Source of the DNA: a virus
IMG/VR virus record: IMGVR_UViG_3300006071_000045
Coordinates: 1 to 34,375 of that record
Length of the DNA: 34,375 nt
Reading direction: 5' to 3' (one strand)
The position numbers and the translations under genes are program-made. Position 1 is the first letter of the stretch; each line of letters begins with the position of its first letter. Below are positions 3,373-24,561 of the stretch, in pieces. Under the pieces are notes generated by a model, which was not told the DNA's origin, did not search any database, and worked only from the letters and a program-made list of their open reading frames with translations.

Positions 3373-3389
3373 TAAAAATTACCTCTTAT

Positions 3390-3397
3390 TATTTATT
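3390..3397 (-). promoter_or_regulatory. Possible late promoter octamer upstream of gp6
   Basis: Read on the minus strand this is AATAAATA, one mismatch from the T4 late consensus TATAAATA. It ends 17 bases before the gp6 ATG, the same distance as the identical octamer in front of gp48. The region is AT-rich, so a chance match is possible. Confidence 0.4.
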
Positions 3398-3417
3398 TTG
3401 TAAATTAACTGCGACTA

Positions 3418-3804
3418 TTAAAGCACATGCAATTTATTAGTTTGGCTGTTAAACAATACGTTAAGCTGTGCAATTTTACTATCTGTTGCAAATTGTAATT
3501 GAAAATTAAGAATCAATCCTAATCCATCAGGTGATTCCTGAACAAGTGTTTGGCTAACAACATTAAATCGTGGATCATATTTTATAATTCTGTCAATATC
3601 TTGTTTAATCTCATTTTTTAATGCTGGTGTAAGTGGATCAAACAATCTATTCCAAATAATTGAACCAATATTCGGATTCATTAACTTTTCACCTTTTCGT
3701 ATTGAAAGATGATTTAACAAATCTTGAACAATGAGATCATTATCACTGATCCCATATGGTCCAAAATCACGATTAACTGAACTATAACCTTTATATAATG
3801 CCAT
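3418..3804 (-). CDS. 25: Baseplate wedge protein gp25
   Basis: This 128-aa protein matches the small gp25 / GPW-type baseplate protein that sits in the wedge core near the sheath-initiation site. Diagnostic stretches are MNPNIGSIIWNRLFDPLT (residues 42-59), the helix around ALKNEIKQDIDRII, and YDPRFNVV, which contains the short D-P-R turn conserved in the family. Its length is close to T4 gp25 (132 aa). It lies 12 bases after the gp5 stop and 45 bases before gp6, all on the minus strand, so it is part of the baseplate operon. Identification is firm; the protein is structural and no enzymatic role is expected. Confidence 0.93.
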   Translation of the reverse strand: MALYKGYSSVNRDFGPYGISDNDLIVQDLLNHLSIRKGEKLMNPNIGSIIWNRLFDPLTPALKNEIKQDIDRIIKYDPRFNVVSQTLVQESPDGLGLILNFQLQFATDSKIAQLNVLFNSQTNKLHVL

Positions 3805-3816
3805 TACGTATTTACC

Positions 3817-6800
3817 TTAACAACTCTTGCCTGCTCCGTTGGTTGCCGCTGTGCCTTGTGGAGTATTTTGTGCGCCACCAGGTGCTGCTGAACCACTACC
3901 TGCACTTGGTGCTGGTTTTTCTATTGGCAGATACGAGTTATCCGTTGGTGTTGCTGCAGTATTGTTTGGCTGAGAAGTTACGCTAACTGCTGGATCAGCA
4001 TAACCACCGCTGAGCGTTCCTTCACCTTGTCTTGGATCAGCAGTAATTTGATTATATGCTGTTGAAGTTTGGTTTAAACCAGGCGATGCGTATGGATGAT
4101 CTGGATTTAAATATCCTGTTGCTCCATCTGGACTTGTTATATTATTTGTAGGCTGTGGCATTTGATTTTGATAATCAGAAGCAGTTGGCGTGTAATTAAT
4201 ATCACGGCTACTATTGTAATCACTATTAAATGCAGCATCACGCTGATCACCAGTAATACTATTATCTACTGGTGCTTTATAGTCAGTTACATTGCTCAAG
4301 TAACTTCCACTGCCACCTTCGGTCTGCGCAAGTGATGCTTGTATAGTTCCACTATCTTCAATTGATTTTATACCACTTGGTGAAAGCGTGTTAAGTGAAT
4401 CTGTAGTTTGACCTTGAGCATATAGTCCTTTAATAGTACTATCCTGCACACTAATTGAAGCGCCAGTATCATCTTTTCCTACCCAACTATAAGTTCCGCT
4501 TGAAGCGTCGTATGTTCGAGTTAATCCACCAACTTGTGCTGGAATATAAGGATTAGATGATATTAATCCACTTGTATTATCGTTTGGTTGCGGATTTGAT
4601 GGATAGTTTGTTGCATAATATGCATTATTTGCAGCATCTATCTGTGCAGTAGCTGTTCCTGTCGCATCGCCTGGCAATCTATCGCCTGCACTTCCAACAG
4701 TTATACTAGTATCTTGTGCTTGCGAACCACTGCCATAGTTGTATTGCGAACGGTCAGTTGGGTTTGAAACAGTTGCAACGTTTGTAGTACTTGTATTATC
4801 AGTACCACCGCCTGCAATATCACCTGGATTTGAAGCTGTAGGAATGATATTGCTATTGGATTTTGCAACATCACGAGCAGAAGTACTATCAGCATCGGTT
4901 GCATTAAGATCAGTAGGTCTGTTTGGTGGAAGTGGAACATTTTCTTCTGGTATAGTTGTTGGCGAACCTGGTAGCTGAACACCGTTTGCATCATAACCAT
5001 TTGCAGCACTCTTTGCTACATAGAACTTACTAGCAGCTTCATTACCATTGCCATCATATATGACACGAGGTCCGCATGATTTGCCACTATACTGATCTTG
5101 TACGACAATACCATCACGGTTTCCATTAGCATCATAGTGATAATCAAGAAACGCTGCAGTATGACTTGAGCCGCTTACGCCACCACTGCCTGGCGGTGCA
5201 TAAGCTGGATTACCATTCGCATCAGTATAATTAAACGTAGTAATGATGGTGCCTGGTGCTGGTTTGCTACTAAAAACGTTTGAACCTTGTTGAACACTGC
5301 TCATAGTTCCAAAGTTTGGAATATTAGTTTGCGCAAGAGCAGCACATTGACCATTACCAAATACCTGACCATTTAACTGGCTAAACACGCCTGTATTTTG
5401 TGAAATAGCAGCGCCGCTTGTACTACTGCTGCCATTAACAACATTATTAACAGCATTGCCTACTGCGCTACCAACATTATAGCTAACAGTTCCAACAACA
5501 TTGTTAATAACACTGTTTAGAATAGTTGTTCCAATTGTTTGCAACGGACTGCTACCGCCATGTGATATACTAGTATTGGTTGCTGGATTAACAAATCCAC
5601 TGTATTGATTTGCTCCATTACTATTTTGCCATGGTTGTTTTACAGGCTGTGCTTTTGCAGCAAATGTAGCTGCATCAATTCCAAGGCTAAGCGCACATCC
5701 GCCTACTACTTGGTCGTAAGTATAACTGATTCTCTTTTGAATAAAGTTAATCATGGCACTTGCCCAACCTATTCTTGTCGTTGGGTCTTTTAAATTTACA
5801 AAATCTGTTGGGTTAATGCCAATATTATTTTGAATGAATCGTGCAAGTGATATAACATTATTATCAGTTTTAAGTTTAGCTTGTAGGTATTTTGAACACA
5901 AATCTAAGCTTGTTAAACTTACTGATGGTGTGCTATAATAACTGTCAAACAATGTCATTAGTGCAGCAATGCCATTTTCAGGTTTGGTATATACTGCAAG
6001 ATGATTAGCAAAACCAATAGCAAATTTATCAGTTGGGTCATATTGTAAATTACCAGGGTTGTTTTGTGATTCACCTACACTGTATTGAGTATTAGTATTA
6101 CTCGGACTGCCTGCATTGTTTGGTTCAAAACTTGCACCAGTGCCATAAGTTATATTTTGTATAATATTTTGAACAGCATAACTGAGTCCAGTTGAAATAT
6201 ACCCAGCAGGTGAATAGCTACCATACATTGAACTTTGTCCGCCAAAGCTTCCTTGCGGACCATTATTATAAACAGTTGGCGGAATATTATTAGTCATTGG
6301 ACCATAAGATTGTTGAACTTTTCCACTACCATAATTTGATGTTGCGCCATACTTGCCAGCAGCGCCAGCAGGTTGATTTTGTTTTGCTCCATAGGTTGGC
6401 TGTGCCTGTGGATTAGCAACGCTCTGGTGACCTGTCCATGCTTCTTTAGTTGGCATGCTGCTGGGTGCTTGTGCGCCGCTTGCTTCTGTTGCTTTTGTAG
6501 CATCAGCAGTATTAATAGTATGACATGCGCCCTTAAGGTCAATGTGACCATCTGCTTTTATTTGAATACAACTGTCGCCTGTAAGATAAGTGTTCATGCC
6601 TTTTAAATGTAAAGACATTTTACCTGTCATCTTAGTGCTTCCGCTACCAAGAATATTAATATCTTTTGCTTCAATGTTTAAACCAGCATCACTTTTGATA
6701 TCTACTGTGCCGCCATGAAGTTTAAGCGAACCTTTTGTTTCAAGATTTATTTCACTTTGCGCAAATACATTTACTTTACTACCGCTATAAACATTAATAT

Positions 6801-7692
6801 CACCTTGAGAGTTAATTTCAACCCAAGATGTGCCTTTACTATTAATAAGATAGATAAAATCTTTGGTGTCATTCATCATAATCATATGACCGCCAGCACT
6901 ACGCAAGCGCACCATTTGATTTTTGCCTTTACTATCACCATCGTCCATTATGAACGTATGCCCACCTTTACGTCCTTTTACACCAAAACTATCGTATGGA
7001 GCATTTAATGGGTCACTGAAAACTTGTGGATCGTTTGGATCAATTGGCTGACCTGGCGTACTAATACCAAACACTGCACTTGGCGTTTCACGAAATGCAC
7101 TGCTAGTACCAGGACCACGGTCAGGGTCTTGAAGCAATCCTTGCGTTTCCCATATCTTTTCTTGAATACTATGTGATTTCTTCTGTAGCGTAGTAAATTG
7201 TGCCAACTGATTGCCTGGCGTTTCATCAGCATAATAATCGACAACAGGATTAGGTGAAGAACCATCTACTGGCGCACTTATGCCAGGTACCATATGCATA
7301 TTAGGCCATTCAGGAATACAAGCAAACCAATAACCACGAGCAGGATCGCCATTAACAAATGTACATAGTACTTTAATACCAATGTCAGGTGGAACAAACC
7401 ACATTCCATAAGAATGCGGAGCGCCTTCGTATCCACTGCTATCTTGATGATTTGTTACGCCATAGAAAGGTGTGCTATAATTTACAGTACGCCATGCATT
7501 ATCATCATTTGGATTGCCACCTAGTTCAGGAATCCAAACTTGTAATCGCCCACTGCGTAGTGGATCAGTGTTTGCTTTTACGATACCAACAAATGGACCG
7601 CCGTTGATGCGAACGCCGTCTGCTTGTTCATGCGCACTCCATTTAGGAGTTTTTCTAAATTGTGTTGATCCTAAATCATTAATACTTGGCAT
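3817..7692 (-). CDS. 5: Baseplate hub spike gp5 with embedded murein-hydrolase-like domains
   Basis: A 1291-aa central spike protein. Residues 33-130 form a gp5/VgrG-type OB-fold (FVGIVKANTDPLRSGRLQVW). Residues 237-390 are glycine-punctuated beta-strands of the triple-stranded beta-helix kind (INLETKGSLKLHGGTVDIKS). A lysozyme/transglycosylase-like segment follows at about 541-650 (ESQNNPGNLQYD, then PENGIAALMTLFDSYY). A Cys-His peptidase-like (CHAP-type) segment lies at about 775-895, with Cys783 in GQCAALAQ, His844 in SSHTAAFLDY and Asp866 in VVQDQYSG. The last 380 residues are low-complexity and rich in Ser, Thr, Asn, Gly and Pro. T4 gp5 has a T4-type lysozyme inserted between OB-fold and helix; here the presumed enzymes sit after the helix instead. 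The start follows AGAGGAATAACA, 14 bases after the preceding gene. The gp5 assignment is strong; the two hydrolase domains are motif-based inference. Confidence 0.87.
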   Translation of the reverse strand: MPSINDLGSTQFRKTPKWSAHEQADGVRINGGPFVGIVKANTDPLRSGRLQVWIPELGGNPNDDNAWRTVNYSTPFYGVTNHQDSSGYEGAPHSYGMWFVPPDIGIKVLCTFVNGDPARGYWFACIPEWPNMHMVPGISAPVDGSSPNPVVDYYADETPGNQLAQFTTLQKKSHSIQEKIWETQGLLQDPDRGPGTSSAFRETPSAVFGISTPGQPIDPNDPQVFSDPLNAPYDSFGVKGRKGGHTFIMDDGDSKGKNQMVRLRSAGGHMIMMNDTKDFIYLINSKGTSWVEINSQGDINVYSGSKVNVFAQSEINLETKGSLKLHGGTVDIKSDAGLNIEAKDINILGSGSTKMTGKMSLHLKGMNTYLTGDSCIQIKADGHIDLKGACHTINTADATKATEASGAQAPSSMPTKEAWTGHQSVANPQAQPTYGAKQNQPAGAAGKYGATSNYGSGKVQQSYGPMTNNIPPTVYNNGPQGSFGGQSSMYGSYSPAGYISTGLSYAVQNIIQNITYGTGASFEPNNAGSPSNTNTQYSVGESQNNPGNLQYDPTDKFAIGFANHLAVYTKPENGIAALMTLFDSYYSTPSVSLTSLDLCSKYLQAKLKTDNNVISLARFIQNNIGINPTDFVNLKDPTTRIGWASAMINFIQKRISYTYDQVVGGCALSLGIDAATFAAKAQPVKQPWQNSNGANQYSGFVNPATNTSISHGGSSPLQTIGTTILNSVINNVVGTVSYNVGSAVGNAVNNVVNGSSSTSGAAISQNTGVFSQLNGQVFGNGQCAALAQTNIPNFGTMSSVQQGSNVFSSKPAPGTIITTFNYTDANGNPAYAPPGSGGVSGSSHTAAFLDYHYDANGNRDGIVVQDQYSGKSCGPRVIYDGNGNEAASKFYVAKSAANGYDANGVQLPGSPTTIPEENVPLPPNRPTDLNATDADSTSARDVAKSNSNIIPTASNPGDIAGGGTDNTSTTNVATVSNPTDRSQYNYGSGSQAQDTSITVGSAGDRLPGDATGTATAQIDAANNAYYATNYPSNPQPNDNTSGLISSNPYIPAQVGGLTRTYDASSGTYSWVGKDDTGASISVQDSTIKGLYAQGQTTDSLNTLSPSGIKSIEDSGTIQASLAQTEGGSGSYLSNVTDYKAPVDNSITGDQRDAAFNSDYNSSRDINYTPTASDYQNQMPQPTNNITSPDGATGYLNPDHPYASPGLNQTSTAYNQITADPRQGEGTLSGGYADPAVSVTSQPNNTAATPTDNSYLPIEKPAPSAGSGSAAPGGAQNTPQGTAATNGAGKSC

Positions 7693-7706
7693 TGTTATTC
7701 CTCTTT

Positions 7707-10700
7707 TTATGCACCGAATGCATATCCCGTGCCTACTATTCCAGAATCTTCCTCTGATGGCGAACCAAATGGTGCAGTTGAACCACCCACAGGCGGTGGC
7801 GGCGGATTAACAGCAATTGTTTTATTTTTTGCTGCTTCTGCTGGCGGGTTTTCACTTACGCCTCTCGTGGCTGAATTAACTGTTTGGTTGCCTACTGTTT
7901 CACTTCTACTTGCACCAGCAGTCGGCGGCTCTTGTGTTGGCACACGAACATTATCTAATTTCTGTGTAAATTTACCACCACTAAAATTACTAATTACTCG
8001 CACTACTTGATATGTGCCACTGAATTGACTGTATGCACCATCTATTTGAAATAAACCTGTTGTATCATTATAATCATTAGTTGGTGTTTGAAAGAAGAAA
8101 TTAAAGTATGCAGGTTTTAAAAAATTAACACTGCCACTACTTAAAATTGGATCAAAACCTCCAATAAGCGGACCATACAGCATAGTGTCTTGCGCAAGCC
8201 AATCAGGATCGCCAACTATTTCAATATTAAGTCTAATCATATCACCGCTAGTATCAAAGTTACGTTCCATAACATTTTGAATAGCAATTGTTGCTTCATC
8301 TAATCCCGTTGGCGCACTGTTTTGACGGTTAGCAATGCCATTTACATAATGCTTGCGACGTTTGAAAAAACGTTGATCTTGCGAACTGTCATATTGTGCC
8401 GACTGCCCAGAAGAAGCTGTTATTTGCTGGGAACCAGGCGTGTCTTTGGTAAGTTGAGCATGAGAGGATAAACCATTAATAATTTCATAAAATGCCATTT
8501 GAAAATCAATATCGACACTTAACACATCTTTGTTATTACCACTGTAAAGATAATCATAACTTTTTACTATTTCACTTGGACTTACTGCAGCTTGACCAAA
8601 GTTTTGACTATCTTGTCCTTTAAGATCATACGGTGTTACATAATATGCTATATCCATTGCCCAAAAATTGCGACTTGTATCCCATTCTCTATATTTTACA
8701 ACAGGATTTGTTTTCCATAAACTTAACGGTGTATTGCTTTTATCACCTGGTTTATATTGGTCTAGCATATAACTACTGACTGTAATCACACTACTAATAA
8801 AATCAGTAATTTTTGTGCCTGCTTGTGCATTAAATTTACCATTCTTCAATTCAAGTGGAAGCGCACCAGTTTTTCCATCAAGTGCATTTTGTAAATTTTT
8901 TGGATCAGTCGAACCTGTTGATTGAGTTGAAAATTTGTTAGGGTCAAAAATTTTAGCATTGTTTATTTTATCGTCAAATACAAATTTATAATTATTAGGC
9001 AATAGCTGTCCTGAATTATCTTTAAGACATTTGTCCGCTTCGTTTTTATTCAATGCATCAGCCAAACCTTTAATAACCGTTGTATTTGTGCCTATTGGTC
9101 CGTTTTCTGTTATTGTTGTTCTAATTTCTTGGTCTGCACTGTTTGGTCGTAATTTATTGGTAGTGGTATTATAACTTGCAGATTCACTTTGAAATAACTC
9201 AGTAATTGTTGCGCCTTGAATTTCAACATGAAAAGGTATTTGATTATCTAGTACTGTACTTGCCATACTATTAGTTGGAATAACGTCACAACTATAAATT
9301 GCGCCGCTACTTGTTATTTTAAATTTCATATTTAAAAAAGTAAATGGAATATATTTGGTAGTATTATCAATTGATTTAGGCTGTCCTAAATCATCATACC
9401 CTAAAAATTCAATCTTCATTACATAAAAACTAGCATCCCAACTTGCACCAGGATTTAATTGAAGTGCTAATTGCTGTAACTGTCCTAAAAATTTAACAGT
9501 ATATGGTTCAATAATATCAAATTTAATACGAATAACATCTGTTCCACGAGTTTTTTGATCGTTGCTAACAATTGTTTCTATTTCAACATTATCAATCGTT
9601 AGGTCATTTGGAAAGAAATTACGACTTGCCGTATTACCACCATAACCACCATCACTGAGCACAAAATAACTGCCCGCAAGTATTGCTTCTTCATTACCAG
9701 GAGCGATAGTGCCATCATACATTTGGTTAATAGTTGTATAAGGAACGCCGTAAATTGAAATTTTATATGTCCAATTTACATAACTGTGTAATTTATTATC
9801 TGGCGCATTAATTATATTTGTTGTACCATTATTGCCAGCACTGCTTGCTGAATCGCTTCCACCACTCGCAATTCCGCTTGACAAAGTAGCCGCAGTACTT
9901 GACATCACGTCTTCACCAGGTTTTATCTTGCTTCCTGTGCCAATATTTGAATTAGTTTGGTCACTAAATTTTATTGTATTGGTTACACTTGGTGTTGCAG
10001 CGGATGTGCTATCTTCAGTAACGCCATTGGTTGCTGCATTAATAGTTTGATTAGGAACAAGAGTTACGCCATTTGTTTGATTTACAGTTGCAGTTTGTGC
10101 TGCTTGAACTGCGTTGGCATTATCTACTATCTGTTGTTGTGTAAGTGGTAATGGTGTGCCGTTGCCGCTGCTAGTAGCAGTATTTGTTGTATTGCCTGCA
10201 ACTATTGCTTGTTGTTGTGCAATAACATTTGCTTGTTCGATTGCTTGTTGCTGTGAAGCTGCAGCGGCGGTTGCAGCGGTTACTGACGTTGTTGCTTGTT
10301 CATTGGCAACTTGTGCGCCATATGATTGAGCAAGTGCTGAATCAAAAGCAGTACCTTGATTTGTGTTTGGTGAAGCATTTAGTGCATCTGCATATTGCTG
10401 TGCGGTTATATTTGTGCGAGGAATGCTTGATTGTTGTCCTGTACCAAAACCAGTATTATTGCTTACAACGGTGTATGGACCAAGGTCTTCGGGTAGGGCA
10501 AATGTAATATCAAAAGAATCAGGTGGCTGACCATTTGGAACCGCTAATTCAAGAGCAGGATAGTTTCCACTATTAAGAATATCATATGCTTTTTGTGAGT
10601 ATTGCGTACCAAGTAATGGATTACCTGTTGCAAGTTGTTGCTTATACCATGTTTGTAATTGGTTGCTAGCCGCACTAAGTTGCTCGGTTTTTGATAAGGT

Positions 10701-14630: not shown

Positions 14631-16742
14631 ATGCTAAAGATCAATAATTTAACAGTAAAGAATTTCATGAGCGTGGGCAATGCGACCCAAGCCGTGAATT
14701 TTGACCGTAGTGACCTAACTTTGGTGTTAGGTGAAAATTTAGATTTAGGAGGTGATGACACTGGTGCTAGAAATGGCACGGGTAAAACCACAATCATCAA
14801 CGCCCTAAGTTATGGTCTCTACGGTCAAGCCCTTACAAACATCAAGAAAGATAACCTAATCAACAAGACCAATGGCAAGAACATGGTCGTGACTGTTGAT
14901 TTTGAAGTTAGTGGTCGGCATTACCGCATTGAACGTGGTCGTAAGCCAAATATCACCAAGTTATATATTGATGGTACTGAACAAAACGATTATACCGATG
15001 ATAGTCAAGGCGATAGTCGTGAGACCCAAGGTGATATTGAACGCCTGTTAGGTATGAGTATTGACATGTTCCGTCATGTTGTTGCACTCAATACCTATAC
15101 AGAACCATTCTTGAGCATGAGAGCCAATGACCAGCGTCAGATTATTGAACAGTTGCTAGGTATTACTATCTTAAGTGAAAAAGCTGATGGGCTTAAGAAT
15201 CAAATCAAAACAACTAAAGATATGATTGGCGAAGAAAAAATTCGTATCAAGGCAGTTCAAGATGCAAATGTTCGTATTGCTGAGCAAATTGAAAACTTAA
15301 AGAAGCGTCAGCATCTTTGGCGATCAAAGCATGAAGAAGATATTAATAAGATTGAAAAAAATCTTATCTCTCTAAGTAAAATTGATATTGATGCGGAAAT
15401 TGATAATCATCGTCTTCGTGAAAGATTTCTTGCTAATAAACGGCTTGAAGATCAGTTAAAGAGTATTCAAGTTCGTCAAAGTTTGTGGGAGCAAAAGCAA
15501 CTTGATGATTGTGATGCAATTAAACTCAACATTGCAAATCTTTCAAGCATTAATATTGATGCAGAAATTGCCATTCATCGTGATATTGCGGATTATGATG
15601 CCAAAGTAAAGCGCCGTGATGAGGCAAAACGATGGATTGCATCTATCGATGCTGCCAATGTTAAAGAAGAAAAAACGCAAGCTAAGTTAAAGAAAGAGAT
15701 TGAAGACCTTAAAAACCATAAGTGTTATGCTTGTGGGTCAGAACTTCATGATGATAATCAGGCAGATATTCTTGCAGCAAAAGAAAGTGCATTGCGCGAA
15801 AGCGTAATACAATTGCTTGCTAACCATACACAGAAAAGTGAGCATCTTGAAACTATTGAGTTAATTGGTGAATTAACGCCACCACCAAAACCATATTACA
15901 AAACGCTTGAAGAAGCACTAAACCATCGCAATACTCTTGAAAATATGAATATTGCTCTTGAAAGCCGTATGCTTGAAAAGAGTCCGTTTAGTGAGCAAAT
16001 ACTTGAACTTGCTACTGAATTGGGTGATAGAGAATATATTTTTGAAAATCAGATTGGTTCTCTGCACTATGACACCATTGAAGATGCGTTAAACCATCGC
16101 AATAGCCTTGAGCAATTAGCAACCGCATTACAAAACAAAACAGAAGAAAATGATCCATATGCTGAACAAATTATAGAAATGGAACAAAATGCGCTACAGG
16201 AAGTAACATGGGACACTATTAATGATCTCACATCGATGCAAGAACATCAAGAGTTCTTGTTAAAGATGCTAACAAGCAAGGATAGTTTTGTACGTAAGCG
16301 CATTATTGACCAAAATCTAGCGTATCTTAATAGTCGCCTTGGTTCTTATCTTGGTGCCATTGGTTTGCCGCATGAGGTTAAGTTTCAAAATGATCTTAGC
16401 GTAGAGATTACTGAACTTGGTCGTGACCTTGACTTTGATAATCTTTCACGTGGTGAGCGTAATCGTCTTATTCTTTCCCTATCATGGGCTTTCCGTGATG
16501 TGTGGGAGAACCTATATCAACATATCAATCTGCTCTTTATTGATGAATTGATTGATAGCGGCATGGATACAAGTGGTGTCGAGAATGCACTTGGTATTCT
16601 TAAGCGTATGGGACGTGAGCGTGGCAAAAGTATCTTCCTTGTATCTCACAAGGATGAATTGAGTAGTCGTGTAAATAATATCCTTACCGTAACTAAAGAA
16701 AATGGTTTTACAAGTTACGGTGATGATGTGGAAACCGTATGA
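14631..16742 (+). CDS. 46: Recombination endonuclease subunit gp46 (Rad50-like)
   Basis: The SMC-type ATPase partner of gp47. I use the ATG at 14631 (703 aa), because upstream in this frame only a TTG nine codons earlier is available and the family normally begins with MLKINNLTVKNF. Walker A GARNGTGKT is at residues 45-53, the ABC signature LSRGER at 605-610 and Walker B LLFIDE at 634-639. The zinc-hook CYAC (Cys365, Cys368) sits at the coiled-coil apex. T4 gp46 has 560 residues; the extra length lies in the coiled-coil arms, which contain two internal duplications, one on each side of the hook. The stop overlaps the next gene by ATGA. Confidence 0.94.
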   Translation: MLKINNLTVKNFMSVGNATQAVNFDRSDLTLVLGENLDLGGDDTGARNGTGKTTIINALSYGLYGQALTNIKKDNLINKTNGKNMVVTVDFEVSGRHYRIERGRKPNITKLYIDGTEQNDYTDDSQGDSRETQGDIERLLGMSIDMFRHVVALNTYTEPFLSMRANDQRQIIEQLLGITILSEKADGLKNQIKTTKDMIGEEKIRIKAVQDANVRIAEQIENLKKRQHLWRSKHEEDINKIEKNLISLSKIDIDAEIDNHRLRERFLANKRLEDQLKSIQVRQSLWEQKQLDDCDAIKLNIANLSSINIDAEIAIHRDIADYDAKVKRRDEAKRWIASIDAANVKEEKTQAKLKKEIEDLKNHKCYACGSELHDDNQADILAAKESALRESVIQLLANHTQKSEHLETIELIGELTPPPKPYYKTLEEALNHRNTLENMNIALESRMLEKSPFSEQILELATELGDREYIFENQIGSLHYDTIEDALNHRNSLEQLATALQNKTEENDPYAEQIIEMEQNALQEVTWDTINDLTSMQEHQEFLLKMLTSKDSFVRKRIIDQNLAYLNSRLGSYLGAIGLPHEVKFQNDLSVEITELGRDLDFDNLSRGERNRLILSLSWAFRDVWENLYQHINLLFIDELIDSGMDTSGVENALGILKRMGRERGKSIFLVSHKDELSSRVNNILTVTKENGFTSYGDDVETV

Positions 16743-17608
16743 ACTTTGATATATCATCGGTAAAAATATTGCATTTAGAACCAACAAGCCGCTGCAATGC
16801 GGCTTGTCCTATGTGTGCGAGGTTTTTAGATGATGGTATAACACTCAATCCAAAATTACAATTAAGTGATTTAACTTTAGAAAAATTAACATCTGTATTA
16901 GATCAAACGTTTATTAAACAATTAGATAAAATGTTTATGTGCGGCGTATATGGCGATCCAGCAGCTAGTACGCATGCTTTACAAATATATGATTGGTTTC
17001 GTTATGTAAATCCACAAATTACACTGGGAATGAATACCAATGGAAGTTTGCGCAATCCAAATTGGTGGGCAATCCTTGGTAGCAGATTAAACAAAATTAC
17101 TGACTACTGTGTTTTTAGTATAGATGGACTGCAAGATACTAATCATATCTACCGACGCAATACTAATTGGGACAAAATTATTAAAAATGTAGAAAGTTTC
17201 ATTGCTGCTGGCGGACGTGCGCATTGGGATATGTTGGTTTTTAAACACAATGAACACCAAGTTGATGAATGTATGCAACTAGCAAAAGATATGGGATTTG
17301 TAGCATTTAGAGCAAAGGTTAGCAAAAGATTTATAAACAGACCTATTACAGGATTAGAACCACCAGAAATTTATTCTCCTAAGCCATCATATGGTAATGT
17401 TAGCTGCCAAGCACTTAATGAACACAGTGTATATATGAATTATCTTGGTAATTTACAACCATGTTGTTTTCTTGGCAACCAATCATATGGCATAGAAAAT
17501 TTTAATAATATTATTAATAATTGGACAGATACGTGCATTGAAACATGCAGTGTTGTAAAAAATGTAAGCAATTTTGGTGCGCAATGGTATCGTGAGATTT
17601 ATTTTTAA
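16739..17608 (+). CDS. Radical SAM protein with SPASM-like C-terminus
   Basis: A 289-aa radical S-adenosylmethionine enzyme. The [4Fe-4S] site is C19-x3-C23-x2-C26 (SRCNAACPMCARF). MCGVYGDP (about 67-74) fits the SAM-binding GGE-like position, and FSIDGLQDTNHIYRR matches the SIDG motif of the family. More cysteines cluster near the end (VSCQALN, QPCCFLG, CIETC), as in SPASM/twitch domains that hold auxiliary clusters and often act on peptides. The start overlaps the gp46 stop (ATGA) and the stop overlaps the next start (TAATG), so it is co-translated with both. The substrate is unknown; the downstream 326-aa protein is a candidate partner. It is an accessory gene, not part of the T4 core. Confidence 0.85.
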   Translation: MNFDISSVKILHLEPTSRCNAACPMCARFLDDGITLNPKLQLSDLTLEKLTSVLDQTFIKQLDKMFMCGVYGDPAASTHALQIYDWFRYVNPQITLGMNTNGSLRNPNWWAILGSRLNKITDYCVFSIDGLQDTNHIYRRNTNWDKIIKNVESFIAAGGRAHWDMLVFKHNEHQVDECMQLAKDMGFVAFRAKVSKRFINRPITGLEPPEIYSPKPSYGNVSCQALNEHSVYMNYLGNLQPCCFLGNQSYGIENFNNIINNWTDTCIETCSVVKNVSNFGAQWYREIYF

Positions 17609-19093: not shown

Positions 19094-19727
19094 AGCATTA
19101 ATTATTGGTGGAACGACTGGTATTGGGGCAGCAATTGGTGAGTTGTTGCATGATAATAATATACTTGTAACCACTGTTGGTAGGCAAGAATTTGATGTTT
19201 GTAGTATAGATTATTATACACAGTTGCATGATTATGATTATCTTGTTTTAAGTTGTGGCATTGACCCACGTGGTAATGTGCCACATTTACAGCAAAATTG
19301 GTCAGATATTGAAATTACACTACAAACTAATTTGATTGGTCAAATGAAATTTACTCACAGCTATCTTAATCAACGCAAAAATAAGTGGAGTAAGGTTGTT
19401 TTTATTGGCAGTGCGCATAATGGCGACCACATTTTGCACAATCGTCTTGCCTATGGACTATCACGATTTGCACAACGTGCTTATATAAATGCTCTTCGGC
19501 ATGAAATAAATGATACAAATCATGGCATATTGCTTGTGCGAGTAGGCAAATCACGAACAAATATATTAAAAAACAGATTACTTGATAGTTGGACACAAGA
19601 AAAAGATGATGAATATTATAGTGATTTGCATCTATCAATGGATGATATCAAACAAAGACTTTCACTTGCATTATTTGATGAACAACATTATACACAAGAA
19701 ATTATATTAGCTACAAAACCAATATAA
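19086..19727 (+). CDS. Short-chain dehydrogenase/reductase-like protein with altered active site
   Basis: About 213 aa with a Rossmann fold of the SDR type: LIIGGTTGIGAAIGELL is the TGxxxGxG nucleotide-binding loop, LVLSCG stands at the NNAG position, and VVFIGSA supplies the catalytic Ser. The active-site Tyr is in AYGLSRFAQRAY, where the canonical YxxxK reads YxxxR. SDRs normally need that Lys, so the protein may be altered in specificity, inactive, or only a nucleotide binder. The GTG at 19086 overlaps the nuclease stop by 8 bases; a TTG at 19080 is the alternative. The last codons overlap the TATAAATA of the next transcription unit. The substrate is unknown. Confidence 0.72.
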   Translation: MRKALIIGGTTGIGAAIGELLHDNNILVTTVGRQEFDVCSIDYYTQLHDYDYLVLSCGIDPRGNVPHLQQNWSDIEITLQTNLIGQMKFTHSYLNQRKNKWSKVVFIGSAHNGDHILHNRLAYGLSRFAQRAYINALRHEINDTNHGILLVRVGKSRTNILKNRLLDSWTQEKDDEYYSDLHLSMDDIKQRLSLALFDEQHYTQEIILATKPI

Positions 19728-19730
19728 ATA
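19723..19730 (+). promoter_or_regulatory. Late promoter TATAAATA before the transporter leader
   Basis: An exact match to the T4 late promoter octamer. It overlaps the SDR stop codon and ends 173 bases before the binding-protein ATG. The transcript would start near 19737, at the beginning of the structured leader. This suggests gp55-dependent late expression of the importer. Confidence 0.6.
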
Positions 19731-19733
19731 CCC

Positions 19734-19898
19734 ACGGAGTAAGGCCGCAAGACCTCGGAATCCCACCTGACGCCTAGAGTATTGTACTCTTTTACTAGCG
19801 TGACACGCCTAGAACGCCAGCCGTAGCATTAAAAATGCAAACTCCTTCTTAATAAAATTGCTATTTTAGTTTAACTCTGTTATGTTAAAGAGAAGGAG
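19734..19898 (+). ncRNA. Structured 5' leader, possible translational riboswitch
   Basis: The leader of the ABC importer contains many inverted repeats. ACGG (19734-19737) can close against CCGT (19821-19824). Inside are a GCAA-capped hairpin (AGGCC/GACCT, about 19742-19755), AGAGTA-TTG-TACTCT (19776-19790), and the segment CTAGCGT (19795-19801), which can pair with either of two copies of ACGCCTAG, at 19770-19777 or 19805-19812; these pairings exclude each other. Then come GCATT-AAA-AATGC (19826-19838) and CTCCTTC (19842-19848), which is complementary to GAAGGAG (19892-19898), the Shine-Dalgarno of the first gene. TTTAAC/GTTAAA (19870-19875/19884-19889) brings these together. I could not match it to TPP, SAM, cobalamin, THF or other classes I know by motif, so the ligand is unassigned. 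Confidence 0.6.
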
Positions 19899-19903
19899 AA
19901 AAC

Positions 19904-20887
19904 ATGTTTAACAGAACCATTACCACTATTGCACTAATTGCTGCTCTCGTTACTGCAGCACATGCTGAAACTGAAGTTCGTGTAAATCGTATGCTGAAAT
20001 ATGCCAGCAGCGAACCACTTCTATATAAAATTGCTGAACTACTTCCGCAATATGCTGCTAAAGAAGGCATCAAAGATGTCAAGATATCATATGTAGATAT
20101 CTTAGAAAGTACTAAAGCAAACGAAGCCTTGTTATTGGGGCAAATTGATATTATCTTTGGCGGTGTCAATAGTTTCGGCATCCTATTTGATAAAGACCCA
20201 TCTAAAGTTAAGTTACTTGCTGGCGCAGAAGAATATGATCAGTGGTTAGTATGTGGCAATCCTAAGATTAAATCATTAAAGGATATCACACCATCTACTA
20301 AGATTGCCATGAAAGGTATGAATAGTGGCGAACAAATGCAACTACGTCAATATACTGCCGATAAGTTTGGCGATAAAGAATATGGCAAATTTGATAGTAA
20401 TATTGTTGTAATGCCTCGTGATATAGCAGTTGCACAGATTACTAAGCAAAATCCTGAGATTGATTGTGGCATCGTAGGCGTTCCGTGGCAAAACATTGCT
20501 GTTAGCAAAGGCGCACATATCGTAGCACATAATGACAATCCTACAAAAACTGTTGGCGTATTGAATGTTGTATATGCTACATCAAAATGGTTGGATAACA
20601 ATCCTAAACTTGCTCGTGCTTGGGTAGCTGCTCAAAAGGCTGCTATTGAAGAATTTGAAAAGAATCCACGTCCAATGCTTATTAACTATATGACAAAGGA
20701 TGAAGTAAATGATCCTACGTTAAGTGAATTAATTGAACAGAAAAAACAAAATGTTGATGTTTATCAATATAAGCCAACCAGCGGCTTAAAGTATATGGAT
20801 TTCATGTATCGTGTCGGCATTTTAAATGGTGCTGGCAAAGATAAGAAGCATAGTGACATGGTTTGGGACGAAAAGTTAGTCAAGTGA
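19904..20887 (+). CDS. ABC importer periplasmic substrate-binding protein (NitT/TauT, NMT1-like)
   Basis: A 327-aa periplasmic binding protein. Residues 1-21 are a signal peptide (basic start, hydrophobic core, cleavage after AHA before Glu22); the lipobox Cys is absent. The mature part has the type-II binding-protein pattern of the nitrate/sulfonate/taurine/thiamine-precursor family: ANEALLLGQIDIIFGGVNSF, then LLAGAEEYDQWLVCG, PSTKIAMKGMNSGEQMQLR at the domain crossover, and VGVLNVVYATSKWLDNNPKL. Length is typical. The SD GAAGGAG, six bases before the ATG, can be masked by the leader. Its stop overlaps the ATPase start (GTGA). The ligand cannot be read from sequence; aliphatic sulfonates, taurine, pyrimidines or purine-related compounds are all within the family's range. 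Confidence 0.88.
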   Translation: MFNRTITTIALIAALVTAAHAETEVRVNRMLKYASSEPLLYKIAELLPQYAAKEGIKDVKISYVDILESTKANEALLLGQIDIIFGGVNSFGILFDKDPSKVKLLAGAEEYDQWLVCGNPKIKSLKDITPSTKIAMKGMNSGEQMQLRQYTADKFGDKEYGKFDSNIVVMPRDIAVAQITKQNPEIDCGIVGVPWQNIAVSKGAHIVAHNDNPTKTVGVLNVVYATSKWLDNNPKLARAWVAAQKAAIEEFEKNPRPMLINYMTKDEVNDPTLSELIEQKKQNVDVYQYKPTSGLKYMDFMYRVGILNGAGKDKKHSDMVWDEKLVK

Positions 20888-21489
20888 TTAACCTTAGTAA
20901 CCATACAGTTACAGTTTGTGATACCATTTCACTGTTTGCACCGATAGATTTGTCGGTGCAGACAGGGGAAATTGCTGTTATTATGGGAGCAAGTGGAGTA
21001 GGCAAGACTAGCTTGCTTGCTTCCATTGCAACCCGAACGGATGTTATATTCAAGAATCAATTTCGTGTTTTTCAAGAAAGTCATCAATTGTTTCCATGGA
21101 TGACTGTTCGAAAAAATTTAGAATTAGTTTGCCAAAAACCATATATTGATTTGGTAAAGCGATGGAATCTAGAACAATATCTAGATCATAGCCCAACAAA
21201 TTTAAGTGGCGGTCAGCGCCAACGATTCACGTTAATTCGTGGTTTATGCAGTGGATTGCGCACATTGTTATGCGACGAGCCTCTAAGCGCCTTAGATGGT
21301 CTTACAGGGGCAACTGTTGCAAAAGATTTCCGTGAGATTGTTCATGAAGAAAATTTAACCGTAGTATGGGTTACACACAATGTAACCGAAGCAAGAATTG
21401 TCGGTGACAGCATATATTTGCTCAGTAAAAATGGTCTCAAAAATATAACCGAAGAGGATGATTTAATTGTTTCGATCCTTTCTTTATAA
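20884..21489 (+). CDS. ABC importer ATP-binding protein (SsuB/TauB/ThiZ-like)
   Basis: A 201-aa nucleotide-binding subunit with every catalytic motif: Walker A GASGVGKTS (residues 35-43), Q-loop Gln64 in VFQESHQLFPWMTVRKNL, signature LSGGQ (107-111), Walker B LLCDEP (128-133), D-loop SALD and switch His165 (VTHNV). The FPWMTVRKN stretch is typical of SsuB/TauB/NrtD-type ATPases, which match the NitT/TauT binding protein upstream. I place the start at the GTG overlapping the binding-protein stop (GTGA); a TTG at 20863 is also possible. At about 200 aa it is shorter than usual (240-260), lacking most of the C-terminal extension. It would act at the inner face of the membrane with the permease, whose start lies inside its 3' end. 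Confidence 0.9.
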   Translation: MINLSNHTVTVCDTISLFAPIDLSVQTGEIAVIMGASGVGKTSLLASIATRTDVIFKNQFRVFQESHQLFPWMTVRKNLELVCQKPYIDLVKRWNLEQYLDHSPTNLSGGQRQRFTLIRGLCSGLRTLLCDEPLSALDGLTGATVAKDFREIVHEENLTVVWVTHNVTEARIVGDSIYLLSKNGLKNITEEDDLIVSILSL

Positions 21490-22213
21490 TATTTTAGCCC
21501 TTTCACTTATATTAGTAGGATGGCATATTTTATATCTTGTTGTTCAAGAACCACTTATATTTCCAGATAGCACAAGTATATTATCTGCACTGTATGATCT
21601 TATATGGACAGCTAAATTTTGGTTTAGTTTCTATTATACTATGCGAACACTGTTGTTAAGTTATATTATTGGCATGTTTATAACCATTGTTATTATATTA
21701 CTTTGTATAAAATATAGTTGGTTAAAAGCGTTATTTGAACGTTATTGTGCATATTTCAATCCACTGCCAAGTTTCGTGCTGGTACCCTTTATGAGCCTGT
21801 TTATGGGGCTAGGTGCGGCGGTTGTGTATAGTATCATCATATGGAATATAGTATGGCAAAGTGGGTTACAGGTACTCAGAGCCATTGAAACGGTAAATGA
21901 ACAATGGGGCAAGCATGTGCAAAATCTGCAATGGAGCGGCACAAAGGCACTTACTAAAGTTTATATACCTGCTGCTATTAGTAATCTAATAGGTATTGCA
22001 AGTACAAGTTGGGCAAATAGTTGGCGAATATTGATTAGTTTAGAAGTAGTATTTGGTAGCATTGGCGGTTATTTTGGATTAGGTTCATATATTATTGATG
22101 TTAAAAGTAAATTGGACATTGACCAAATGTATGCTATTCTATTTGTTATTGCATTAACAGGCGTTATTATTAATGGTTTATTGAATAATTTAAAGAAGAA
22201 ATATAGTTATTAA
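21467..22213 (+). CDS. ABC importer permease (SsuC/TauC/ThiX-like)
   Basis: A 248-aa inner-membrane protein with about six hydrophobic segments: near residues 5-26, 55-80 (SYIIGMFITIVIILLCIKY), 100-118, 118-135, 168-185 and 220-240. The cytoplasmic EAA loop that docks on the ATPase lies at about 137-170 (LRAIETVNEQWGKHVQNLQW followed by KVYIPAAIS). This is the BPD_transp_1 permease architecture of nitrate/sulfonate/taurine importers. It starts at a TTG with GAGG nine bases upstream, overlapping the ATPase gene by 23 bases; the next in-frame ATG (residue 59) would remove the first membrane segment. One permease gene suggests a homodimer in the complex. Confidence 0.88.
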   Translation: MFRSFLYNILALSLILVGWHILYLVVQEPLIFPDSTSILSALYDLIWTAKFWFSFYYTMRTLLLSYIIGMFITIVIILLCIKYSWLKALFERYCAYFNPLPSFVLVPFMSLFMGLGAAVVYSIIIWNIVWQSGLQVLRAIETVNEQWGKHVQNLQWSGTKALTKVYIPAAISNLIGIASTSWANSWRILISLEVVFGSIGGYFGLGSYIIDVKSKLDIDQMYAILFVIALTGVIINGLLNNLKKKYSY

Positions 22214-22223
22214 AGGAATTACT

Positions 22224-22823
22224 ATGACTTGGTTTTATAAAATTTTAGAAGATTTGCCGCATGTTCCGCAACATTTGATTGAACGTGCTTATGAGCAGAT
22301 GGATACAGAATTAGAACAAATGCCGCAAGGCGAACAGCAAATCGATTGGAATAAGATTACCACAGATACTATTATTGTCGATGGCGTCAAGAAAATTAAT
22401 GCTCCAAATCTAGCATATAGTTTAGATGATGAAATGCGTGATTGGGTATATGATAATATTACAGACAAGAGTGTAGTTAATATTCGCATTGCTAAAGCAG
22501 ATACAGGCAAAGATGGTAAGGATACAAATGGCGCTCATTGTGATTTAAGTCGCAATTATAGTTTAATTTACCTTCTCGATGGTGGCGGCGAGGATCATAA
22601 AACAGTGTTTTATCATGAACATGGCAAGCCACTCTTGCGAAATAATGGTGACCGTTGCAATGACCACAGCTTATTGGATGTCGTTGAAAGTTTTCAAATA
22701 CCGTTGCGAACATGGACAGTAATACAAACTCGTATATTACATGGCGTTCGTAACATTCCACGTCCCAGAATCAGTATCCAAGTTGGATTAAACAGCGTTG
22801 AAGGTTTAGGAATTAGTGAATAA
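22224..22823 (+). CDS. 2OG-Fe(II) oxygenase-like protein
   Basis: A 199-aa protein with the double-stranded beta-helix signature of 2-oxoglutarate/iron(II) oxygenases: H105-x-D107 (GAHCDLSRNYSLIYLLDGG), distal His173 (TRILHGVRNI) and Arg182 in PRPRISIQVGL, which would bind the 2OG carboxylate. The spacing of about 66 residues between HxD and the second His is normal for small phage enzymes of this type. It begins 10 bases after the permease behind AAGGAATT, and the following gene overlaps it by 8 bases. It may hydroxylate a small molecule, possibly the imported compound, or a protein or nucleic acid; nothing in the sequence decides which. Such oxygenases are frequent in aquatic T4-like phages. 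Confidence 0.7.
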   Translation: MTWFYKILEDLPHVPQHLIERAYEQMDTELEQMPQGEQQIDWNKITTDTIIVDGVKKINAPNLAYSLDDEMRDWVYDNITDKSVVNIRIAKADTGKDGKDTNGAHCDLSRNYSLIYLLDGGGEDHKTVFYHEHGKPLLRNNGDRCNDHSLLDVVESFQIPLRTWTVIQTRILHGVRNIPRPRISIQVGLNSVEGLGISE

Positions 22824-23958
22824 TTTTCGTGTAGATTACAACAATAACATGTATTATGTTGTAAATGGACAGCGTATCTATAGTAAGATAGCCGCTATCC
22901 ATGCTGCACGTGGCGATATGGATAAAATATCTTTTCATTGGATGGAAGAGATATGGGATAATGTTGATTGGTCAAACGAACCAAATGAGGATTGGTATGA
23001 TTTGCTGCGCACACGATGCCAGCAATTGCGTGACAAATACAAATATTTGGCACTGTGGTATAGCAGCGGTTATGATAGTCACACCATTTTACGCAGTTTT
23101 GTTGATAATAATATCTTACTTGATGAATTATTAATATATGACCGTGGTGATTTCTTTAATGATCCTGAAACAAAATTTGCATTACAACATGCACAATATG
23201 TAAAAGAAACCTATTATCCTAATTTAAAAATTAACCACATCAAGATAAATTTTAAATCATTGGCTAAATTTTATAATGATTTAGGTGAAGATTGGATATT
23301 TCATCCTGGTTGTTCGTTGAAACCTGGCAAAACAAGTCGTTATTTCAGCACTAATATAACTGAAGATTTTTTAAACCACACCACCAAGAAAAGTGATCGT
23401 GGTGATATCATGGGTGTTGATAAGCCTAAGTTAATATTACGGGATGGTAAATGGTATGCTTTTTGTCCTGATGGCAGCACTGCTGATTTTATTGGGTCAA
23501 AACATGAAAATTTCTATATAACAGGCGAACTACCACAACTTCATCTAAAACAAGTACATAAAGCAATCAATTGGTTTGACTCATTGCCTGAGTTTAACGA
23601 TGATATTTTGCATGATGTTCAAGGTCGCAGTAGAGTGATAGATGGGCCACATAAAGAATATTTTGCAGCGTGGAATCATGCCATAGGACGTTATCCTATG
23701 TTTTATAGTCATGGAACTTCAATTAATGGCAATATTAAGACGTTTCATCTAACAAATAGCGAATATTCACCAGACAGCACAAGTTTCTATGAATACATAA
23801 AAAATAGTGACAAACGTACTTTTAAGATATATACTCAAGGCTTAGTAGAAGCAAGAAAATACGACAGCGGCACATCAGGCTCATTGGCAGATAAAACTTT
23901 TATTGGCAAACAATACTTCGTTAAACCACAGGCATATCAGGCATCTCAGGCACCATAG
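22816..23958 (+). CDS. PP-loop (N-type ATP pyrophosphatase) enzyme, asparagine-synthase-like
   Basis: A 380-aa protein with an ATP-pyrophosphatase loop near residues 79-92: ALWYSSGYDSHTIL, equivalent to the SGGxDS motif of asparagine synthetases, GMP synthetases, tRNA thiolases and related adenylating enzymes. The next strand, LLDELLIYDRGD, fits the fold. The C-terminal half is not recognised and contains many aromatic residues and several Gly/Asp turns (RDGKWYAFCPDG). No glutaminase domain is present, so the nitrogen or other nucleophile must come from elsewhere. The GTG start overlaps the oxygenase stop by 8 bases (GTGAATAA). As last gene of the importer chain it may activate a carboxylate of the imported or a host compound; that is a guess. 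Confidence 0.72.
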   Translation: MNNFRVDYNNNMYYVVNGQRIYSKIAAIHAARGDMDKISFHWMEEIWDNVDWSNEPNEDWYDLLRTRCQQLRDKYKYLALWYSSGYDSHTILRSFVDNNILLDELLIYDRGDFFNDPETKFALQHAQYVKETYYPNLKINHIKINFKSLAKFYNDLGEDWIFHPGCSLKPGKTSRYFSTNITEDFLNHTTKKSDRGDIMGVDKPKLILRDGKWYAFCPDGSTADFIGSKHENFYITGELPQLHLKQVHKAINWFDSLPEFNDDILHDVQGRSRVIDGPHKEYFAAWNHAIGRYPMFYSHGTSINGNIKTFHLTNSEYSPDSTSFYEYIKNSDKRTFKIYTQGLVEARKYDSGTSGSLADKTFIGKQYFVKPQAYQASQAP

Positions 23959-24213
23959 TCCTTATTATCAGAAAACTAATTGAAGGTTGTCAGCACCCCG
24001 ACATTGCTGTATGGACAACGTTTGGCTAACGATAGGCTAAACGATGAGGCTCTGAGAAAAAGCAACCTCAACTTACATATGTTCGCTAACAAGGGTATAT
24101 GTAGGGTCCGTTGGTTATAATCTACAGGATGTGAAGGGGTACCGGCTAACCGCCCCACTCAATTATACGAGTTCCGTTTGTTAGTGTCTATTTGATGGCT
24201 CAAATGAAGCGTC

Positions 24214-24252
24214 TTAGACATGGATTTCCTGCTTAAGGAAATCTATGTCTAA
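24214..24252. repeat. 16-bp inverted repeat, 7-base loop
   Basis: TTAGACATGGATTTCC (24214-24229) pairs with GGAAATCTATGTCTAA (24237-24252) over 16 bp with a single G-U wobble on the plus strand; the loop is TGCTTAA. It is too stable to be chance in this context. No U-run follows, so a simple terminator is unlikely. Confidence 0.8.
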
Positions 24253-24286
24253 AATCTGGTCTAAATGAAACTGTAAAGATTAATTA

Positions 24287-24300: not shown

Positions 24301-24393
24301 AGAGCGAAGCGAAAAGGTGAGTGAGCGATAGCGAACGAACTGATGTGCAAAGCACATCATATAACCTTAGAAATAAGGTAATCCGCTCTTTTT
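24300..24393 (+). terminator. Branched terminator-like structure between convergent genes
   Basis: AAGAGCG (24300-24306) closes on CGCTCTT (24384-24390), which runs into TTTTT. Inside are two perfect hairpins: TGATGTGC-AAA-GCACATCA (24341-24359) and ACCTTA-GAAA-TAAGGT (24364-24379). The first arm has iterated GAGCGA/GCGAA units. The end of the closing stem with the U-run would stop transcription from the importer operon. It overlaps the 3' end of the convergent gp51-like gene. Confidence 0.55.
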
Positions 24394-24561
24394 AGTAGTT
24401 TCCATATGATCTTCAACCATCTTAGCAATAATCTGGCGTTCTGTAACACTCATGTTCATGCCTTCGGTATAGGTAAGACCACCACGCATATGCCAACACA
24501 TCTCTAAAATATTCTTTTTAATAGATTTTACTTCTTTTTCATAACCTTCCACCATTGCCAT
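24367..24561 (-). CDS. Small baseplate hub assembly protein, gp51-like
   Basis: A 64-aa protein, helical and charged, starting MAMVEGYEKEVKSIKKNILE and ending in MVEDHMETTKKSGLPYF. It follows the gp26-like gene by 20 bases on the same strand, with GAAGAG upstream of its ATG. In aquatic T4-like phages a small protein at this place is annotated as gp51, the hub assembly catalyst, or as a conserved hypothetical; the EGMNMSVTERQIIAKMVEDH segment fits that group. The assignment rests on position and general similarity. The stop codon lies inside a hairpin of the terminator-like block. Confidence 0.6.
   Translation of the reverse strand: MAMVEGYEKEVKSIKKNILEMCWHMRGGLTYTEGMNMSVTERQIIAKMVEDHMETTKKSGLPYF

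Follow-up and report, generated by a model that had tools for sequence, protein, structure and literature searches.

The stretch of DNA analysed here (the window) is IMG/VR virus record IMGVR_UViG_3300006071_000045, 34375 bases long, in which genes for a three-subunit ATP-binding cassette (ABC) importer, a 2-oxoglutarate (2OG)-Fe(II) oxygenase-like protein and a PP-loop protein follow one another behind a structured leader RNA. As judged from sequence and covariance models, this leader belongs to a wider class of phage RNA that has no credible match in Rfam. The importers found beside the RNA come from three unrelated superfamilies, ABC, tripartite tricarboxylate (TTT) and tripartite ATP-independent periplasmic (TRAP) transporters, sometimes together with a porin; the commonest constant parts are the RNA and the PP-loop enzyme, with the transporter being exchanged. 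The same RNA at these importer blocks suggests a shared, regulated viral uptake of one kind of compound during infection, and on balance we favour reading the block as an auxiliary phage cassette for the uptake and conversion of an organic anion, equipped with a cis-regulatory RNA.

The leader RNA and its occurrence in other phages

The putative RNA occupies positions 19736-19850 of the plus strand, as delimited by pair counts and covariance-model matches, and its structure, which we named from the sequences, comprises helices P1 (19736-19740/19841-19845), P2 (19742-19755), P3 (19756-19823), P4 (19776-19790), P5 (19795-19812) and P6 (19826-19838). In an alignment of 12 lineages, with near-identical copies omitted, 93.1% of the cells are paired and 12 of the 33 pairs carry compensatory double changes, against a mean of 7.3 double-change pairs in shuffled alignments; none of 500 shuffles reaches the observed number, paired share or covariation score. 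Double-change cells number 41, versus 11.6 (standard deviation 2.7) in the shuffles, and with slid partners only 28-48% of cells are paired; the count of further pair types is no higher than in the shuffles (412 of 500). The initial annotation had given the importer its own leader RNA, and the covariation across the 12 lineages agrees with this: the leader appears to be a conserved, covarying structured 5' RNA whose transcription is predicted.

Rfam 15 holds no family that reaches its gathering score in the window, and the matches listed at relaxed thresholds for the leaders of the window, L361 and L263 lie far below gathering. A known riboswitch class was accordingly rejected as a candidate, nothing credible having come from Rfam at either gathering or relaxed E-values; thiamine pyrophosphate, molybdenum cofactor and other riboswitch classes were also considered. 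Two leader queries gave no blastn match in named phages. Inspection by eye suggests that a GCC/GAC motif containing a C-A mismatch occurs twice (in P2 and P3; window 19742-19823) and persists where neighbouring pairs change.

A covariance model trained on the 12 window-clade leaders (R1) matches RNAs beside PP-loop genes at L263/L264 (41.6 bits) and L272 (32.8 bits), loci in which tblastn finds no ABC importer. With these added to the training (R2), the model matches L361, which lay outside the training set, at 35.6 bits. A sequence pattern built from L272 and L361 picks out 29 contigs, including those of L272, L360 and L361, and R2 matches all 29 at 35.6-80.4 bits, scores that the pattern letters themselves raise. 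P1, P4, P5 and P6 fall outside the pattern, and these four helices hold 20 of the 21 double-change pairs among the 20 distinct copies. In the alignment of these copies, which was fitted to the model and hence leans towards it, 92.2% of cells are paired, compared with 27-46% in slid versions.

No RNA match at E<=1 occurs in 100 control loci (946 kb), taken from among the matches listed for two loose leader patterns, most of which were chance matches. Among 40 contigs from a stricter earlier pattern, 24 are unmatched by R1, and with R2 none of them exceeds 12.5 bits. The L263/L264 RNA was missed with R1 and found with R2 in the search of genome records, and 0 of 299 cellular genomes gave a match, a weak negative obtained under strict filters and with no positive control. 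A candidate at L262 (12418-12544; R2, 20.9 bits) lacks most of the inner helices and was not counted. The RNA is mostly present in one copy per record. In L400, two copies (4767-4883 and 7762-7880) flank TctC and PP-loop genes on one contig, and the L375 contig (G326) has a second, weak copy at 28.7 bits.

Genes beside the RNA

The surroundings (within 6 kb) of 31 representative RNA loci were searched with profiles partly seeded from the same loci: 27 have a PP-loop gene, 28 an importer protein and 29 at least one of the two, while 2OG-like proteins occur in 13 and radical SAM (S-adenosylmethionine) proteins in nine. Neither an importer nor a PP-loop gene lies within 6 kb in any of 79 control loci. 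The pattern scan contributed 16 of the loci (29 contigs minus three already known and ten near-copies; L379 and L382 are close relatives), with a PP-loop gene in 13, an importer in 13 and one or the other in 14.

Pfam supports TctA, TctC, DctM, DctP, NMT1_2, ABC_tran, BPD_transp_1 and porins beside the RNA. In L263 the RNA is followed by a porin, a 2OG-like protein, a TctC protein and a PP-loop gene, and in L272 by a PP-loop gene, a weakly TctC-like protein (E 0.1) and TctA (6.8e-52). The RNA of L361 lies between DctP and a PP-loop gene, after which come TctA and a TctC-like protein (25.4 bits, cut-off 27); this contig (228 kb, classed as virus) also carries DctM. Further assignments are DctP in L394 (9.4e-52) and L400 (1.6e-42), TctA in L391 (3.8e-67) and L374 (8.7e-31), porins in L400 and L386, and another full ABC importer in L379 (NMT1_2 1.5e-6, ABC_tran 4.4e-22, BPD_transp_1 5.4e-9). 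The TctC assignments in L377, L374 and L401 fall under the Pfam cut-off, and a 301-aa protein of L391 has no Pfam match. The window has a radical SAM protein of its own (16739-17608, plus strand; Pfam Radical_SAM 4.1e-7), 39% identical to the protein directly behind the leader-type RNA in phage L375.

Several side observations concern these neighbourhoods. In L361, positions 449-9253 also hold a likely DctQ and desaturase-like genes, around the PP-loop gene and the RNA. By eye, the DctP proteins of L394 (8695-9639), L400 (3803-4753, minus strand) and L388 (1629-2612 and 2628-3287) seem to have no signal peptide; those of L388 apparently stand in tandem, and a cytoplasmic solute-binding protein in phages is a possibility. 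Partly by eye, L359 (535-7110) has several PP-loop genes together with carbamoyltransferase-like, hydroxylase-like and radical SAM proteins, and L357 (5989-11603) has several PP-loop genes with TctC and 2OG-like proteins, in both cases with no RNA match.

Predicted promoters, Shine-Dalgarno pairing and the possible role of the RNA

The late promoter octamer that had been annotated ahead of the importer is there: the T4-type sequence TATAAATA lies at 19723-19730 (plus strand), overlapping the stop codon of an upstream short-chain dehydrogenase/reductase (SDR) gene, and the five block genes, which overlap or sit a few bases apart, stand behind it and a leader of ~170 nt. ATAAATA occurs in all eight rows aligned at this site, and [ACG]TAAATA lies within 25 nt upstream of the RNA in 20 of 20 distinct copies from other phages. 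Between the RNA and the binding-protein gene is a sigma70-like promoter, TTGCTA-N17-TATGTT (19858-19886, plus strand). The more general form TTGnnn-N17-TAnnnT, with its end 6-8 nt ahead of GGAG, is present in all 12 lineages (0.65-1.75% of mononucleotide shuffles per lineage), the lineages being related and hence not 12 independent events. Both the promoters and the switching described below are predictions. The sigma70-like promoter and the wider RNA class had both gone unnoticed in the initial annotation.

An anti-Shine-Dalgarno strand, CTCCTTCTT (19842-19850, plus strand), overlaps the 3' strand of P1. In all 12 lineages the CTCCTT strand of P1 can pair alternatively with the Shine-Dalgarno (SD) region, over 8-11 bp, and 114 of 20000 cross-lineage permutations score as high. 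Computed for 11 leaders, L289 being left out, SD access in the free leader is 0.00-0.08 in nine, 0.52 in L255 and 0.76 in L240; with P1 forced it is 0.49-0.99 in all 11. According to these models the RNA of the window's clade can switch access to the SD, and beyond this clade the picture is mixed.

The leader may possibly be a riboswitch, an attractive reading. In its fuller form, a new riboswitch class, to date seen in phages only, would sense the imported compound or its product and would control importers of three superfamilies along with a new PP-loop/2OG/radical SAM pathway; this we advance tentatively, at somewhat short of an even chance. The RNA might instead be a protein-bound or stability element of late transcripts (an autoregulatory or host-factor site, for example) and no metabolite sensor, a possible explanation that we regard as less likely than not. 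Such an element would agree with the late promoter core found just upstream of all 20 copies, with an SD switch that is not general, and with a GCC/GAC motif seemingly present twice, which would suit a protein. It accords poorly with an RNA that is mostly single-copy per record, that has an importer or PP-loop gene within 6 kb in 29 of 31 loci rather than accompanying late genes at large, and whose SD switch is conserved within the window's clade.

A number of observations weigh against the cassette reading and its regulatory RNA. The computed fold favours the SD-paired form in nine of the 11 leaders, and the other two, L255 and L240, leave the SD partly accessible even when P1 is not forced. 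Among the 20 distinct copies from other phages, forcing P1 raised SD access in nine and lowered it in five; of the remaining six, three have no recognisable SD and three have too few P1 pairs. The scan pattern came from two loci that both lie beside PP-loop genes, which, like the partial seeding of the profiles, bears on the neighbour counts. Two of the 16 pattern-scan loci, L375 and L381, have the RNA by radical SAM genes and neither an importer nor a PP-loop gene, and L392 has a PP-loop gene and no importer near the RNA; conversely, PP-loop phages L265-L271 and L356-L359, several of them with TctC, give no RNA match. Kinship with T4 is unsupported for the contigs that have no ABC importer, whose viral status rests on IMG/VR: Portal_T4 is found in none of 26 of these contigs and in two of 28 overall, namely the window and the contig of L250, which served as positive controls, and Terminase_6N in three of 28 records, one of them an RNA-bearing contig (L380). 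The Gp23 profile, with no match in any of 30 records, was uninformative.

The importer block and its proposed function

By fold, motifs and permease family the block appears to encode a complete NitT/TauT-type ABC importer (19904-22213, plus strand, as are all five genes), solute transport itself being predicted. The substrate-binding protein (19904-20887) has, by profiles and model, an NMT1/SsuA/TauA-like fold and a signal-like N-terminus, the latter judged by eye. Its matches to NMT1_2, NMT1 and SsuA-family profiles all lie under their cut-offs (21.1 bits against 24.7 for PF13379; 25.9 against 163.5 for NCBIfam TIGR01728, the SsuA sulfonate-binding subfamily). The best fold match of the model is SsuA (Z 23.5, root-mean-square deviation (rmsd) 3.2, 273 aligned), with TauA close (Z 21.4) and CmpA, NrtA and Thi5 nearly as close; proteins of this fold take too wide a range of small ions and vitamins for it to point to a particular ligand. 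The ABC ATPase (20884-21489; Pfam ABC_tran 3.8e-18) was annotated as having every motif, and all are found: Walker A (GASGVGKT), the LSGGQ signature, Walker B (LLCDEP), the D loop (SALD) and the H loop (THN). The start listed for it, TTG 20863, is probably incorrect. A better fit is GTG 20884, which forms a GTGA overlap with the stop of the preceding gene, since in relative L007 the longer frame is interrupted by a stop codon. The permease (21467-22213) matches BPD_transp_1 (5.4e-12; 46.2 bits, cut-off 26.4), so that its annotation as a permease stands, but the loop that had been called EAA does not contain those letters.

The 2OG-Fe(II) oxygenase-like protein (22224-22823) matches phrog_81 (2.7e-4). 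It has no Pfam oxygenase match, and none to TauD up to E 1. Residues H105, D107, H173 and R182 (HxD...H, R) are invariant across the 13 rows of its alignment, a metal triad and arginine that point to the 2OG-Fe(II) oxygenase superfamily and a predicted activity of that kind. The PP-loop protein (22816-23958) is so called tentatively, from its SSGYDS motif, which as S[SG]GYDS is present in 12 of 12 aligned rows; it is unmatched in Pfam, PHROGs, NCBIfam and PDB sequences at the thresholds used. Structures similar to its model are those of asparagine synthetase, beta-lactam synthetase and LarE, with a best Z of 10.7 at rmsd 5.4 over 250; the nine best rows, at rmsd 5.4-6.7 Å over 248-293 residues, are all asparagine or beta-lactam synthetases. 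Enzymes of the asparagine-synthetase-like and LarE kinds adenylate a carboxylate or handle sulfur. Profiles, motifs and fold together bear out three intact importer subunits leading into 2OG-like and PP-loop genes, and the profile searches proposed for the five proteins identified the ATPase and permease, with the binding protein remaining below cut-off.

The gene order of tauABCD is binding protein, ATPase, permease and 2OG enzyme, which is also the order in the window, and one might envisage scavenging of a sulfonate by import, 2OG-dependent desulfonation and a PP-loop enzyme using the sulfur. The closeness of the binding-protein fold to SsuA and TauA, and of the PP-loop model to LarE, a sulfur transferase, would suit such a scheme. 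We nevertheless consider it unlikely, given the CmpA, NrtA and Thi5 folds that are nearly as close, a binding protein far under the SsuA family cut-off, a 2OG protein with no TauD match, and the use of TTT and TRAP proteins by other phages.

The search of viral metagenomes for the same gene order, proposed in the initial annotation, was run and found that order on other contigs. A scan with the ATPase gives eight loci on eight contigs, in all of which the importer genes are contiguous, the 2OG-like and PP-loop genes come next, and the same minus-strand baseplate gene follows. Scans with the PP-loop protein and the permease give 25 and 17 loci, respectively; of the former, 15 have an ABC importer and the baseplate gene (the binding protein of one being cut by the contig end) and ten do not. 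Besides the window, the importer is present on 17 viral contigs, and the whole block with the baseplate gene is seen on 16 of them, L287 included; the contig of L289 ends inside the permease. Binding-protein identity among these relatives is 41-100%. In 50,697 named phage records neither the binding protein nor the PP-loop protein has a match, and the permease has five, each less than 23% identical; TctA and DctP queries find few and distant matches (six and 14, respectively). Cellular relatives of the binding protein include one genome-contig locus, at 30% identity, and loci in 17 of 249 genomes of its phylum at E<=1e-20; the open reading frames (ORFs) read in four of those loci named no ligand.

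Independent cargo genes gathered in a permissive spot, with no shared pathway, are an improbable explanation for the block. Neighbouring genes (SDR, methyltransferase, u17608 and radical SAM) do vary, coming and going between lineages as cargo would, but the binding protein, ATPase, permease, 2OG-like and PP-loop genes stay together down to ~41% identity, and RNA, PP-loop and importer genes meet also on contigs that have no ABC block. An assembly join with a bacterial contig, named with lack of linkage in related phages as grounds for abandoning the annotation, has nothing found in its favour and is virtually excluded: 16 other contigs, with identity falling to 41%, have the same order and linkage and the phage genes on either side.

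In the uptake-and-conversion cassette that we prefer, the binding protein would capture an organic anion in the host periplasm and the ABC pair would import it, a TTT or TRAP importer doing so elsewhere, sometimes with a phage porin. The PP-loop enzyme, joined in many phages by proteins resembling 2OG oxygenases or by radical SAM proteins, would act on the imported anion. Located close to where the predicted late transcript begins, the RNA would serve as a cis-regulatory element. In the window's clade the SD would be free when P1 is formed and paired with CTCCTT once P1 is lost, which is how an ON riboswitch behaves; the downstream sigma70-like promoter would give a short mRNA that starts near the SD, has no RNA element and escapes this control. 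We infer that the proteins of the cassette serve one kind of compound. Since organic acids are the usual substrates of TTT and TRAP binding proteins, an organic anion, whether a carboxylate or a sulfonate, is what the importer types would most plausibly have in common. The annotated uptake and conversion gains weight from a PP-loop family that persists across changes of importer class, and a phage-borne importer with its own leader RNA, linked to oxygenase-like and PP-loop genes, is supported as a conserved unit; that the compound is a single one, its identity and the chemistry involved are parts of the claim that stay hypothetical.

The annotation had also called a whole phage importer unusual, and here there is precedent: PMC10987575 reports complete Pst systems in four soil viral operational taxonomic units and one public phage genome. 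Similarly, tctA and 2OG genes are described on SUP05 viral contigs in PMC4164917 and PMC6359870. Like these and PstS, the window block consists of phage genes that would raise host uptake; unlike it, the systems in the portions available of PMC10987575 and PMC4164917 come with no mention of an RNA element, a PP-loop gene or an exchange of importer class. With NitT/TauT-type importers (SsuA/TauA/NrtA/ThiY relatives) the block shares three subunits, binding-protein fold, ATPase motifs and permease family; it differs in being phage-borne, in its short ATPase, in its late promoter and structured leader, and in a binding protein under the cut-off of the sole matching named subfamily. The PP-loop protein shares an SGGxDS-like motif and model similarity (Z up to 10.7) with AsnB, beta-lactam synthetase and LarE, but differs from them in having no sequence-level match. 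Translational riboswitches with SD-sequestering platforms are known as a class, and the leader resembles them as a conserved, junctioned 5' RNA whose P1 strand doubles as anti-SD; it is unlike them in reaching no Rfam gathering score, in a switch that is not general, and in ligand binding that is predicted only. Neither the RNA class, nor a connection between it and importers of three superfamilies, nor the PP-loop family was met in a literature search of limited coverage.

With one RNA by ABC, TTT and TRAP importers, some accompanied by a phage porin, and by one enzyme family, these loci offer a testable case of phages that run their own regulated nutrient uptake, and viral metagenomes can be screened for such cassettes with the RNA as a sequence tag. 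If it binds a small molecule, knowing the ligand would reveal which compound several phage groups import and would be a first handle on the PP-loop chemistry; were the riboswitch reading true, this would be a virus-specific system of nutrient acquisition and conversion with its own RNA sensor.

The portal, protease and capsid genes of the window are T4-like. Among the 2494 phage records in which its gp23 has a match, the 15 listed best show 63.5-68.1% identity, and because these 15 all belong to phages with genomes of at least 280 kb, such as PA5oct, GAP32 and Sinorhizobium phage Phosso, the window probably represents part of a far larger genome, that of a T4-like jumbo phage. The gap that separates the PP-loop gene from the convergent baseplate gene holds a second conserved, putatively structured noncoding stretch of ~280 nt (23980-24262, plus strand assumed), for which RNAalifold predicts 71 pairs, 23 of them with double changes, over 10 lineages; Rfam gave no credible match to it. 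A small minus-strand ORF (24367-24561) adjoins the baseplate gene and looks conserved in alignment.

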